DNA of 64,000 bases from Methanococcus maripaludis (GTDB taxonomy: Archaea; AGJL01; Methanococci; Methanococcales; Methanococcaceae), in the NCBI RefSeq assembly GCF_013760955.1, contig NZ_JACDUL010000001.1, positions 148,481-212,480 on the forward strand, given 5' to 3'. Shown one piece after another: positions 10,713-59,856 of the stretch; the stretch's first letter is position 1; every line of letters begins with the position of its first letter. The notes below the pieces were generated by a model. The model was not told the DNA's origin and did no database searches. It was given only the letters and a program-made list of their open reading frames with translations. The translations under genes were made by a program, and so were the position numbers.

Positions 10713-12119
10713 TTAACCCCACCTTCTAAGCCTGTTTAACAGCACTTTATCCCGGTTTTCAACATTTCCATTAAATTCCGCAGTTAACAGTCCTTTTGTT
10801 CCAAAAGTTCCTTTTATTTTTCCAACAACATCTTTTCCTTCAATGGATATTTCTTCACCGATTAATTTTTCGGCTGCAACTTTTGACTGTGCGAGTTCTT
10901 CAATCACGGTCCTTGATTTATCGATTTTAATCTTTCCTTCCCTAAGTACTTCTTTTTTAATATTCAGATCTTTTATTGGTTTAAATTCCTCGATTAAACC
11001 ATGACCACAGATTCTAAGGGTTGTTGGGGGAAGATCAAGCCTTGTAATTAAAACCCTATCTCCAACTTCCGCCAAAACCTTTTCTTCAAGTTCAAATACA
11101 CAGTAGCATTCATTTCCAGAAATTACTTCGTTTAAAATTACATTTTCTTCCGATTTGCCAACCGTTAATTTTTTAAACGGTACTGCAACTGCCGGAACTA
11201 TCAACATTCCCACATTTAAGTGAACTTTCATTTTTGGAGTTAAATTGTACTTGAAAATGTCTGAAATTTTTATTTTGGCAACTATTTTGTCGACTACCTG
11301 TAAATTAGTATCTTTTGAAGTTAAAATGCATCCCCGATAGATTTGTTTTGCTTCAACACCCTGAATTGCCATTCCAACTCTGTCGCCAGCTTTTGCCTCC
11401 ATAACATTTTCTTTAAAGCACTGTATACTCCTGACTTTCGTAGACATGTTTATTGGAAGAACTTTTAATTCATCACCGACTTTCACAATTCCTTTGTTAA
11501 TAGTTCCGGTTACAACCGTTCCTGCACCCTTTATAGGAAATGCGTGATCTAGGGGCATTTTAAAATAACTGTCAGTATTTCTAATTATTTCAGTATTATT
11601 CAAAGTATTTATAATCAAATTTTTAATTTCGGTGATGCCAGATCCCGTTTTTGCAGAAATTGGAATAATTGAACTGTTTTTTAAATTTTGAGTAGATTGC
11701 AAAATGGACTTCATAAACATTTCAGTTCTTTTGATCTCTTCGGTTTCTGCATTGTCTGATTTTGTAATCACAACAATTGTTGGAATATTGAAGTGATCAA
11801 GAATTAACATGTGCTCCCCAGTCTGGGTCTTTGGCCCTTCTTTTGCATCAACAACAATTAATGCAAGATCGATTATATCTGCAGCACTTACAACTGCCCT
11901 AATTAAATCAGCGTGTCCTGGTGCATCAACCAAAGTTATACGGTAATTTTCAAGCTTAAATGCTGAAAACCCGATATCGATTGTAATTCCACGTTTTTGA
12001 GATTCAGGCAGTTTATCGTGTGCCGAAGTTGATGCAATTTCCGTTAAAACTTTAGAAAGTGTCGTTTTTCCGTGATCGATGTGTCCAAAAATTCCGAGGT
12101 TGATATTTTTAAAGTCCAT
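10713..12119 (-). CDS. selB: Selenocysteine-specific elongation factor aSelB
   Basis: GTPase that delivers Sec-tRNA(Sec) to UGA codons marked by a SECIS element, 468 residues. The G domain has GHIDHGKTT at 12-20, DAPGHAD and TKSD. It differs from EF-1alpha and aIF2gamma by a shorter G domain and by an extra C-terminal domain of about 130 residues, as in archaeal SelB; unlike bacterial SelB it has no winged-helix RNA-binding tail. Its substrate message, fruA, is in the same window. It is divergent from a hydrogenase maturation protease gene. Confidence 0.92.
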   Translation of the reverse strand: MDFKNINLGIFGHIDHGKTTLSKVLTEIASTSAHDKLPESQKRGITIDIGFSAFKLENYRITLVDAPGHADLIRAVVSAADIIDLALIVVDAKEGPKTQTGEHMLILDHFNIPTIVVITKSDNAETEEIKRTEMFMKSILQSTQNLKNSSIIPISAKTGSGITEIKNLIINTLNNTEIIRNTDSYFKMPLDHAFPIKGAGTVVTGTINKGIVKVGDELKVLPINMSTKVRSIQCFKENVMEAKAGDRVGMAIQGVEAKQIYRGCILTSKDTNLQVVDKIVAKIKISDIFKYNLTPKMKVHLNVGMLIVPAVAVPFKKLTVGKSEENVILNEVISGNECYCVFELEEKVLAEVGDRVLITRLDLPPTTLRICGHGLIEEFKPIKDLNIKKEVLREGKIKIDKSRTVIEELAQSKVAAEKLIGEEISIEGKDVVGKIKGTFGTKGLLTAEFNGNVENRDKVLLNRLRRWG

Positions 12120-54870: not shown

Positions 54871-54930
54871 TTCAATATGTAATTGATATTTAATTTAAAA
54901 AACTGCAATATACTAAATTTATGTGATATA

Positions 54931-56199
54931 ATGACAATTGCTAAATTTCACGGTGGATGCCACCAAATTGGAAAATCTTGCGTAGAGATAAACACTAAAA
55001 AATCAAAAATATTAATTGACTGTGGAATGGACCCTTCAGATAACGGGCTTCCAGACATTACTGATTCTGATGTTGACGCAGTTTTGGTTTCACACGCTCA
55101 CTTGGACCACTGCGGTGCAATCCCATATTTTAACTTCAAAAAAATATACTGTAACCCCCCAACTGCGGATTTGATGTACAACGTCTGGAAAGACACGGTA
55201 AGCCTTTCAAAAACGTACAGGGAAGAAGATATCAAAAAATCAATGGATGTAATCAAAACTGTAAATTACCGGGAAGAAAAACAGGTTACTCCAGACATTA
55301 AAATGAAAATGTACGATGCTGGACACATTTTAGGAAGTTCTTCCCTCTATTTGGATATCGATGGAAAAAAATTACTCTATACCGGAGATATTAACGAAAT
55401 TGAAACAAGAACGCTCCGTGCAGCAGATACTGACTTTGATGAAATCGATACAATAATTATTGAATCTACTTACGGTTCTCCGTTGGATATAAAACCTGCA
55501 AGAAAAGTTTTAGAAAAACAGTTAATCGATGAAATCTCTGAAACTATCGAAAACGGTGGAAAGGTAATTATTCCTGTTTTTGCAGTTGGAAGGTCCCAAG
55601 AAATCATTGTTGTGATCAACAACTACATGAAAAGCGGTGCTTTAAAAGAAGTTCCAATATACATTAATGGATCTTTAACACACACTACGGGAATGTACAT
55701 GGGATATTCTGACTGGTTAAATCCAAAAATAAAAAATGCAATTGAAAACAGGATCAATCCGTTTGGAAATCTCATAAAAGGCGGGGACGAAGCTTTCAGT
55801 AAAGAACCTTGCATTATTATTTCAACATCAGGAATGGTTCAGGGGGGCCCAGTACTCCAATACCTTTCACTATTAAAAAATCCAAGAAATAAGATAATAT
55901 TAACAGGATACCAGGCTGAAGGAACTATTGGAAGAAGTCTTGAAGAAGGTGCTACAGAAGTAAAACCTTTCAAAAGAGCAATTCCCGTAAATGGAAAAGT
56001 TGTAAAAATCGAGTTTTCTGCCCACGCTGACTACAATTCGCTTCTGAGGTTTATGAAAAAGATACCACAACCAAGCAAAGCGATCGTAATGCACGGGGAA
56101 AGGTACCAGGCACTTTCACTTGCAATGACAATCTGGAAAACCTTAAAAATTCCTGCACTTGCACCATCCATAGGCAGTGTTTTGCCATTATTTGATTAA
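54931..56199 (+). CDS. Beta-CASP metallo-nuclease without KH domains (aCPSF2-type)
   Basis: A 422-residue RNA-processing nuclease of the CPSF73 group. Metallo-beta-lactamase motifs SHAHLDHCGAIPYF, DAGHILGSSSLYLD and LYTGDINEIETR are followed by beta-CASP motifs VFAVGRSQEIIVV, ISTSGMVQGGPVLQYL and FSAHADYNSL with a final VMHGE. The N-terminal KH domains of the termination factor FttA (aCPSF1) are absent. ATG 54931 follows ATGTGATATA; an upstream frame start at 54883 is hydrophobic and unlike the family. Confidence 0.92.
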   Translation: MTIAKFHGGCHQIGKSCVEINTKKSKILIDCGMDPSDNGLPDITDSDVDAVLVSHAHLDHCGAIPYFNFKKIYCNPPTADLMYNVWKDTVSLSKTYREEDIKKSMDVIKTVNYREEKQVTPDIKMKMYDAGHILGSSSLYLDIDGKKLLYTGDINEIETRTLRAADTDFDEIDTIIIESTYGSPLDIKPARKVLEKQLIDEISETIENGGKVIIPVFAVGRSQEIIVVINNYMKSGALKEVPIYINGSLTHTTGMYMGYSDWLNPKIKNAIENRINPFGNLIKGGDEAFSKEPCIIISTSGMVQGGPVLQYLSLLKNPRNKIILTGYQAEGTIGRSLEEGATEVKPFKRAIPVNGKVVKIEFSAHADYNSLLRFMKKIPQPSKAIVMHGERYQALSLAMTIWKTLKIPALAPSIGSVLPLFD

Positions 56200-56351: not shown

Positions 56352-56403
56352 TCCCCAAGAAAGAAAGTTTAATGTATGCATATTACCCTTGGAGGTGACT
56401 AAA

Positions 56404-57648
56404 GTGGCAGAACCTGTAACTATCAGCCCTACAACTAGACATGAAGGGCACGCTAAGCTAGTTTTGAACGTAGACGATGAAGGGATTGTAACTAAGGCAT
56501 TTTATCCAAATACGACCCCTGTAAGAGGTTTCGAAACAATGTTGCAAGGAAAAGCAGCAGCATTCGGACCTATTGCAGTTATGAGAATTTGTGGTATATG
56601 TCAGGCAACCCACGGTATTGCTTCATGTGAGGCAATCGAACATGCTATTGATATGGAAATACCTAAAGACGGTATGATATTAAGAGAATTAGTAGGTTTA
56701 GGAAATAGGATGCATTCGCACCCACTACACCACTTGTTAATTGTAGATGACCTCTTAAAACCTGAAGAAGCTGGAACTTTAAGAGTAGAAGGAATTAAAT
56801 TAATCCAGAGAATGAGAAAAGCTGGACAGATGCTTGTAGATGTTGCCGGTGGGGAAGGTATTCACCCTCCAAACTTAATGGTAGGCGGTATGAGAACAAA
56901 CATCACCGAAAGAGCAAAAGCTAAACTCTACTATGCTTGCAGAGAATACGAAAAAGACTGTAATGCAATGCTAGAAGTATTAGAAATGTTAATGGAAAGA
57001 TACTTGGAAGAAATCGGAATTCCTGATCTAGGTAAACATGATCTCCCATATATTGCTTCAGACACAACATTTGGTAACAGAGATGCTATCAACTTTAAAG
57101 ATATAACAGAAGTTACTGCACAAAGATACTATGCAGACTTCCCAGATATTGCACAAACCGCAACAAACCAGATCCCATTCTACAGAGGAAACCCTGCAGA
57201 AGGTGGACCTAGGGCAAGAATGATTAAATACGGAAACTTTAAATCTGCCGGTGGAGCAATGGATATTAACCTTGCGAGAGCGATGGAAAACTTTGAAGCT
57301 GTTAAACGATCATTGGAACTTCTTGATGAATTAAACATTAACGGAACTACAAGAGAAGTACCTAACTTCTATAATGCTAAGGAAGAATACGGAATAGGTG
57401 TTCACGAAGCACCAAGAGCTATCAATACCCACATGGCTAAAATGGGTAAAGATGGTAAAATCGAAAAATACAACATCATTGCTGCTTCAACATGGAACTT
57501 CCCAGCTGTTGAAAAAGCTATTGAAGGTTACCACCACCAATATGCGGAAGTAATTATGAGAGCTTACGACATATGAGCTTCATGTGCTACGCACGTCATC
57601 GTAAAAGATGAACAGACTAAAAACGTTGTTGAAATAAGAGAATTCTAA
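56404..57648 (+). CDS. fruA: F420-reducing hydrogenase large subunit FruA, selenocysteine-containing
   Basis: [NiFeSe] large subunit that splits H2 to reduce coenzyme F420; 414 residues if the in-frame TGA at 57574-57576 is read as selenocysteine. N-terminal nickel ligands are RICGICQATH (C63, C66). The C-terminal motif is DI-U-ASCATH, with Sec391 and Cys394 where other hydrogenases have DPCxxC. Conserved sequence continues after the TGA to the TAA at 57646-57648. The protease FruD would cut after His397 and remove 17 residues. GTG 56404 follows GGAGGTGA; a TTG at 56389 overlaps that site. A naive gene call would end at 57576 and lose the active site. Confidence 0.95.
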
Positions 57649-57664
57649 ATTCCTGAAAAGGAAA

Positions 57665-57700
57665 GTCTCAGAAAGGGAACCTTAATGGACCTCAAGAGAC
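57665..57700 (+). promoter_or_regulatory. SECIS element in the 3' untranslated part after fruA
   Basis: Archaeal SECIS hairpins have a conserved GAA...A internal loop between GC-rich stems. Here GUCUC pairs with GAGAC at the base, AGG (57674-57676) with CCU (57690-57692), GAA (57677-57679) faces A57689, and CC/GG close a UUAAU loop. The element begins 16 nt after the true fruA stop, where archaeal SECIS elements normally lie. Confidence 0.85.
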
Positions 57701-57748
57701 AAAATTTAACTCACGGTAATCAAAAAAATCATTTCAACGGTTATTGAT

Positions 57749-58273
57749 ATGGAATATAAACTAACCCCTTCTTACCTTTTAAAGGAAAATATGGTTCTTG
57801 CATGCGGAAATATCCTATTTGCAGACGATGGATTCAGTGTCCATGTAATCGAAAAATTACAGGAATTATTAACTGAAGAAGAAAAGGAAAATATTGCACT
57901 GGTAGATGCCGGAGCAGGTGCTCCACAACAGGTGCTCACTTTAATCGACGGTGAATCTAAGACTAAACGAATTATAGTCGTAGATATTATAGATTACGGA
58001 CTAGAACCGGGAGAAATTAAAATACTTACTATGGATGACCTTCCAAAACCAGAACACACAAAAGTTGATAGTCATGACTGGCCGCTCTCTACTACGATGT
58101 ATAGGGTATTTAGAGATGCACCTCATGAAATAGACTTTAAAGTTGTTGGTTGTCAGAAAAAGTACGTTTCAGAACCTGATGTAGTACTTGAACTGTCAGA
58201 AGAAGTCCAAAATGCAGTAGATGTAGCCGTAGACATAGTACTTTCCGAATTAAGGGGAAAACCAATCAACTAA
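57749..58273 (+). CDS. fruD: Hydrogenase maturation protease FruD
   Basis: Endopeptidase of 174 residues expected to remove the FruA C-terminal extension after nickel insertion. The start [31 protein letters not shown] and the [11 protein letters not shown] segment provide the nickel ligands of the HycI/FrhD fold. It is homologous to the solo protease at 12229. It lies in the fruADGB operon, 100 nt after fruA with the SECIS in between. Confidence 0.94.
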
Positions 58274-58287
58274 GGGAGGAGAATATC

Positions 58288-58974
58288 ATGGTAAAAGTTG
58301 CTCACGTGCAATTAAGTAGCTGCTGTGGGTGTCTAGTTTCCCTTGCAGACACCTATGAAAAGCTTTTAGATGTTTTAGGAGCTATAGATTTAGTTTACTC
58401 CCAGACTCTTGCTGATGTGAGAGAAGTTCCTGACGATGTAGACATAATCTTACTCGAAGGTAGCGTTTGTTTAAGCGACCACCACGCAATGGAAGTTGCA
58501 CTTGATTCTAGGAAAAAAGCAAAAATATTAGTTGCTTTAGGAGCTTGTGCTGCTACTGGAAATGTTACAAGATTTTCAAAAGGAAATCAGCCTTCAAAAC
58601 CAGTTCACGATGCATTTGCACCATTAACAGAAGTTGTAAAATGTGACTTGGCAATCCCAGGATGTCCACCATCACCAGAATCTATAGTTGCAGTAGTTTT
58701 GGCGGCATTAAACGGAGATATGGAATACTTAGAACCATATGCAGAACTTGCAAAATATGGATCAGAAGCTTGTGGATGCGATTTAATTACAAAAGTAATT
58801 AATAAATCACTCTGTATGGGATGCGGTTCATGTGCAGCAGCTTGCCCTACAAGAGCAGTATCTATGGATGCAGGAAGACCATTAGTTGACAAGGAAATCT
58901 GTATAAAATGTGGCTCATGTTCAGTTCAGTGCCCAAGAATTAGATTCCCTGAATTAATTGAAAAAATAGAATAA
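58288..58974 (+). CDS. fruG: F420-reducing hydrogenase small subunit FruG
   Basis: Electron-transfer subunit of 228 residues. [20 protein letters not shown] is the proximal cluster site typical of small subunits, and [14 protein letters not shown] and CAATGN supply more ligands. The C-terminal part has two ferredoxin motifs, [12 protein letters not shown] and [13 protein letters not shown] strong GGGAGGAGAATATC ribosome-binding site precedes the ATG, 14 nt after fruD. Confidence 0.96.
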
Positions 58975-59007: not shown

Positions 59008-59856
59008 ATGGATCCCTTTGGAACATATATAAAAGCAGTCTCCGCAAGAGCTGCAGACAAAGAAATCCTTAAGAAAGCACAAGATGGAGGTATCGTTTCT
59101 GCCGCATACATTTACGGTTTAGAAAGCGGACTCCTCGATGGTGTAATTATTGCAGACAAAGAAGATGGATTCGCAGCAGCTCCAAAAGTTGCTACAACAA
59201 GAGAAGAAATCTTAAGCGCTGCAGGAACTAAATATACCGTATGTTCTAACCTTTCAGTAGTAAAAAGTGCTGTAAGAGAATACGGATGTGAAAAAGTCGG
59301 ATTTGTTGGAACTCCTTGCCAAGTCCGATCAATCAGAAAAGCAATAAAATACCCTGTTGGATACAGACACGTTCCAGACAAGATTGCATTAATTATGGGT
59401 ATCTTCTGTATGGAAAACTTCCCATACAACGGTATGAAAGCAATTGTTGAAGAACACTGTGGTATCAAAATGGACGATGTTGTAAAAACCGACATCGGAA
59501 AAGGTAAATTCTGGGTTTACTCAAAATGGGGAGACGTAAAAACAGTTCCATTAAAAGACACCCACCCATACGAGCAAATGTCATGCCACGTATGTATGGA
59601 CTATACAGCAGAACTTGCAGATATCTCAACAGGATCAGTAGGAAGCCCAGATGGATGGAGCACAATCTTTGTTAGAACTGCAAAAGGAGAAGAGTACCTA
59701 AACAAAATGGTTGAAGCAGGCGCTATTGAAACAAAAGACATAGACGCTGTAAAACCAGGTTTAGACTTAGTACAAAAACTCGCTCTCTCCAAAAAAGAGA
59801 AAAATGCAAAAGAAGTAGAACACAGGAAAGAAATTGGTTTACCAGTTCCATACTAA
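59008..59856 (+). CDS. fruB: F420-reducing hydrogenase beta subunit FruB
   Basis: Flavoprotein of 282 residues that binds F420 and FAD and contains an iron-sulfur cluster. Family segments are [50 protein letters not shown] and [15 protein letters not shown] with the cluster cysteines. AAGGTGATTAG precedes the ATG. It is the last gene of fruADGB and takes electrons from FruG to reduce F420. Confidence 0.96.

Follow-up and report, generated by a model that had tools for sequence, protein, structure and literature searches.

The window, that is, the whole stretch of 64,000 nucleotides analysed here, carries the hydrogenase genes fruA, fruD, fruG and fruB together with selB, and the features concerned were collected in Table 1. 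With TGA translated as U, the frame of fruA encoded a precursor of 414 aa (397 aa once the C-terminal tail is removed). The GTG at 56404 was taken as the start codon from the sequence and its translation, and in two relatives (L004 and L006) GGAGGTGA likewise precedes GTGGCAGAA. FruA scored 593.3 bits against NCBIfam TIGR03295 (frhA; curated cut-off 392.5), which placed it among the alpha subunits of F420-reducing hydrogenases. Homologues of frhD, frhG and frhB followed directly on the 3' side, all above the cut-offs of TIGR00130, TIGR03294 and TIGR03289, as in an operon of this kind. The protein was 94-99% identical to the copies of the nearest two genomes, and a search for related loci in the genome contigs returned two distant hydrogenases only. 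Upstream of fruA, at 54883-56199 (+), a beta-CASP ribonuclease of 438 aa was encoded; it was aCPSF1-like but under the cut-off of that family, and it matched only family positions 179-624, the N-terminal part being absent.

Table 1. Features of the fruA locus, and selB, in the window
Feature	Position	Strand	Description	Basis
Shine-Dalgarno-like GGAGGTGA	56391..56398	+	upstream of fruA GTG 56404	sequence
fruA	56404..57648	+	Sec-containing alpha (large) subunit, F420-reducing [NiFeSe] hydrogenase	TIGR03295, translation with TGA=U
In-frame TGA	57574..57576	+	codon for selenocysteine 391, at a nickel ligand position	conserved TGA in relatives
C-terminal tail VIVKDEQTKNVVEIREF	57595..57645	+	17 residues, follows His397	conserved in copies read
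TAA	57646..57648	+	true stop codon of fruA	sequence, translation
SECIS element	57665..57700	+		pattern search, folding, covariance model, covariation
fruD	57749..58273	+	hydrogenase maturation protease (FrhD family)	TIGR00130 190.9 bits; PF01750
fruG	58288..58974	+	gamma subunit	TIGR03294 362 bits
fruB	59008..59856	+	F420-binding beta subunit	TIGR03289 463.5 bits
selB	10713..12119	-	selenocysteine-specific elongation factor, 468 aa	TIGR00475 above cut-off

The TGA at codon 391 stands where the C-terminal nickel motif has its first cysteine, and the preliminary description had located it correctly to the base. The C-terminus was translated as ...RAYDI-U-ASCATH-VIVKDEQTKNVVEIREF, in which U391 was aligned with the Cys of DPCVSCATH in FrcA, the Cys paralogue of FruA, and the sequence past the UGA was conserved as in selenoprotein genes. 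The conserved ASCATH and the tail reaching to the TAA, which had also been proposed beforehand, were recovered both in the translation and in the relatives. It had been claimed further that automated gene calling would truncate the protein and lose the active site. The truncation was found, as a mechanical caller stops at the TGA, but the loss of the active site would be partial: among the nickel ligand positions C63, C66, U391 and C394, two of the four (U391 and C394) are lost by a stop at the UGA, and C63 and C66 stay.

The 3' stretch of fruA folded as a small hairpin followed by the hairpin at 57665-57700, for which the minimum-energy and centroid structures gave GUCUC(AGAA)AGG-GAA-CC(UUAAU)GG-A-CCU(CAA)GAGAC. 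In this fold, the GAA (57677-57679) faces A 57689, the apical CC/GG pairs close the UUAAU loop, AGG/CCU forms the basal clamp and GUCUC/GAGAC the outer stem, and the spacing from the UGA to the stem is 88 nt. A stem with GAA facing A, GC flanks and a short loop in an untranslated region is the shape of the archaeal (methanogenic) SECIS as defined in PMC9622424 and PMC11881835, and the earlier proposal of a SECIS core here was thus supported by fold and pattern. When the two strands of the window were searched for the GAA/A arrangement between GC pairs with at least 8 bp around it, a single instance was found, compared with about 0.15 per strand expected from simulated sequence. Judged by folding energy alone, the 67-nt 3' stretch was no more than mildly unusual (z -1.8). 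No match was returned by Rfam for the whole window at gathering thresholds, and no SECIS match for 57400-57900 when the search was relaxed to E <=10.

Because Rfam found no SECIS at fruA, a covariance model was built from seven equal-length SECIS of other Methanococcales genera, which replaced a set of ten aligned with gaps. The 3' region had been suggested for such a search, and the single match of the home-built model in the window was 57665-57700 (E 0.0054). In the whole genome, the fruA SECIS was the top match (E 0.15) and the second match lay just 3' of vhuU. At E 0.05 the model missed 5 of the 7 Methanococcus fruA elements; the stems of the Methanococcus elements L003-L007 differed in sequence and kept the same paired shape. 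Compensatory changes were found among 21 matched loci (13 distinct), where two-sided changes fell in 4 SECIS pairs and numbered 15 compared with 5.4 in shuffles; 98.6% of cells paired. The alignment behind these figures was fitted to the covariance model, which works in favour of the structure. Given the z of -1.8 and the whole-genome E of 0.15, the SECIS call leans on position and conservation in addition to score. Lack of SECIS conservation in related genomes had been named as a ground for rejecting the proposal, and all 26 UGA copies read carried a conserved tail and a SECIS in the 3' UTR.

The distribution of the UGA form and the decoding machinery were evaluated in the source genome and its relatives. 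UGA was present at this fruA codon in 7/7 Methanococcus genomes. Across the Methanococcales, 35 of 36 genomes had a match above the frhA cut-off, the genome without a full-length FruA/FrcA match being 54% complete, and a UGA copy was found in 35/35. The source genome contained a tRNA-Sec (above the Rfam cut-off, with ARAGORN in agreement), SepSecS, PSTK, SelB and a SelD with a UGA of its own, which is the machinery for selenocysteine. The match of selB to TIGR00475, at G000:C1:159688-160584(-), reached 410.9 bits together with its neighbour in frame. selB and fruA share the window, about 44 kb apart. A rival view, in which the TGA is a genuine stop codon or arose by nonsense mutation and has left a truncated or decaying gene with the downstream similarity as a relic, agrees with the mechanical gene caller ending the frame there, and it was judged extremely improbable in the face of the UGA copy in every genome with a full-length match, the tail conserved in those read, and the full Sec decoding set in the genome.

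The nickel motif separated UGA copies from Cys copies without exception among those read. The UGA copies had DI-U in 24 cases and DM-U in 2, followed by ASCA(T/V/A)H, whereas all 11 Cys copies (FrcA) had DP-C. The DI-U motif, first described as a variant worth comparing, is therefore not peculiar to this strain, as DI-U/DM-U was fixed in all 26 Methanococcales UGA copies read. VhuU of the source genome has DP-U, which indicates that Ile marks FruA and is not a need of Sec. FrcA (e.g. L008-L013) belongs to the same family as FruA and has the same subunit role; it differs in having Cys for Sec, DP-C for DI-U and no SECIS, and is about 51-54% identical. The structure of FrcA from Methanothermococcus thermolithotrophicus has been solved (9r51). 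The vhu cluster of the source genome (G000:C1:500-507.6 kb) resembles fruA in that vhuU likewise carries a UGA within its C-terminal nickel motif, with a SECIS-like match just 3' of the gene, but it encodes an F420-non-reducing hydrogenase with a separate small subunit gene.

The 3'-UTR of fruA from M. maripaludis is the model archaeal SECIS, and in vivo that of strain JJ causes UGA to be recoded and 75Se to be incorporated (PMC9622424, PMC11881835). Recoding with this 3'-UTR was reported to be SECIS- and selenium-dependent, with the GAA/A motif essential and a UGA-to-SECIS distance of 88 nt (PMC9622424), and the published element has an apical clamp of two C-G pairs and a five-base loop (PMC11881835). 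Compared with fruA of M. maripaludis JJ (MMJJ_14570), the locus described here comes from another strain or species and showed only small sequence differences; the order fruADGB, the 88-nt spacing, the GAA/A bulge, the two C-G apical pairs and the five-base terminal loop were alike. Minor Sec-independent suppression of UGA has been discussed for M. maripaludis (PMC9622424), and a near-cognate tRNA might accordingly read the codon without selenium, e.g. as Cys or Trp, with the hairpin having no role. However, readthrough with the M. maripaludis fruA 3'-UTR was mostly SECIS- and selenium-dependent (PMC9622424), and the SECIS went with the UGA copies, and the covariance model gave no SECIS match at the 11 Cys-copy loci; we give such decoding hardly any credence.

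Taken together, conservation, the machinery in the same genome and the published experiments on the orthologue make it practically certain that UGA 391 of fruA is read as selenocysteine, directed by the 3'-UTR SECIS just past the true stop, and no evidence against this recoding was found. By analogy with the M. maripaludis orthologue and the hydrogenase family, archaeal SelB would bring Sec-tRNA(Sec) to codon 391, licensed by the untranslated hairpin that begins 88 nt 3' of the UGA. Sec391 would then replace the first cysteine of the nickel motif and bind nickel there, and FruD would be expected to cut off the 17-residue tail after His397, as do proteases of the HycI/FrhD family. The reading of fruA in the preliminary description is true but already known: fruA is established in the literature as a selenoprotein gene, even though a Sec-unaware gene caller would truncate it, and the locus is a textbook case and not a discovery.

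In the absence of selenium, fru expression goes down and frc expression goes up (PMC11097638). Neither FrcA nor VhcA had a match in the source genome, alone among the seven Methanococcus genomes; each of the other six searched had at least frcA. Without these matches, the source genome may depend wholly on Sec isoenzymes. In G001, an approximately 11-kb Cys cluster (fwdB-hdrA-vhc-frc) sits between two flanks which, with the cluster DNA of G001 as query, were found to adjoin in the source genome at G000:C2:126849/126868 (L070:16849-16868), within a contig and with no N; the cluster may still lie in a masked stretch elsewhere in G000. G002 carried the Cys cluster too, and shared with G001 the flank next to frc. 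In the source genome, the empty site is separated from a tRNA-Ser by about 26 kb that include an integrase gene and look like an integrated element beside the missing cluster. Tyrosine-integrase-like and MCM-like genes were seen in L040:9949-20000 and L070:1-16524 (G000:C2, about 101-126.5 kb). In G001, vhu and tRNA-Sec likewise seemed to be missing, but this was rejected as a masking artefact, since G001:C1:1036001-1056000 (L072) is all N in the copy analysed. The Cys copies were absent from many other Methanococcales genomes too, so that a Cys-less state has precedents within the order.

These results confirmed a textbook selenoprotein of archaea in a further genome, with exact coordinates for annotation, and added that the UGA form was present wherever a Methanococcales genome had a full-length match and that DI-U/DM-U and DP-C set Sec and Cys copies apart among those read. 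We consider it an even chance that the Cys back-up cluster (frcADGB, vhcDGAB, hdrA and fwdB) has been lost in its entirety from this strain, in which case selenium and the fruA SECIS would be required for its H2-dependent methanogenesis, and the source genome may represent a natural selenium-dependent Methanococcus.
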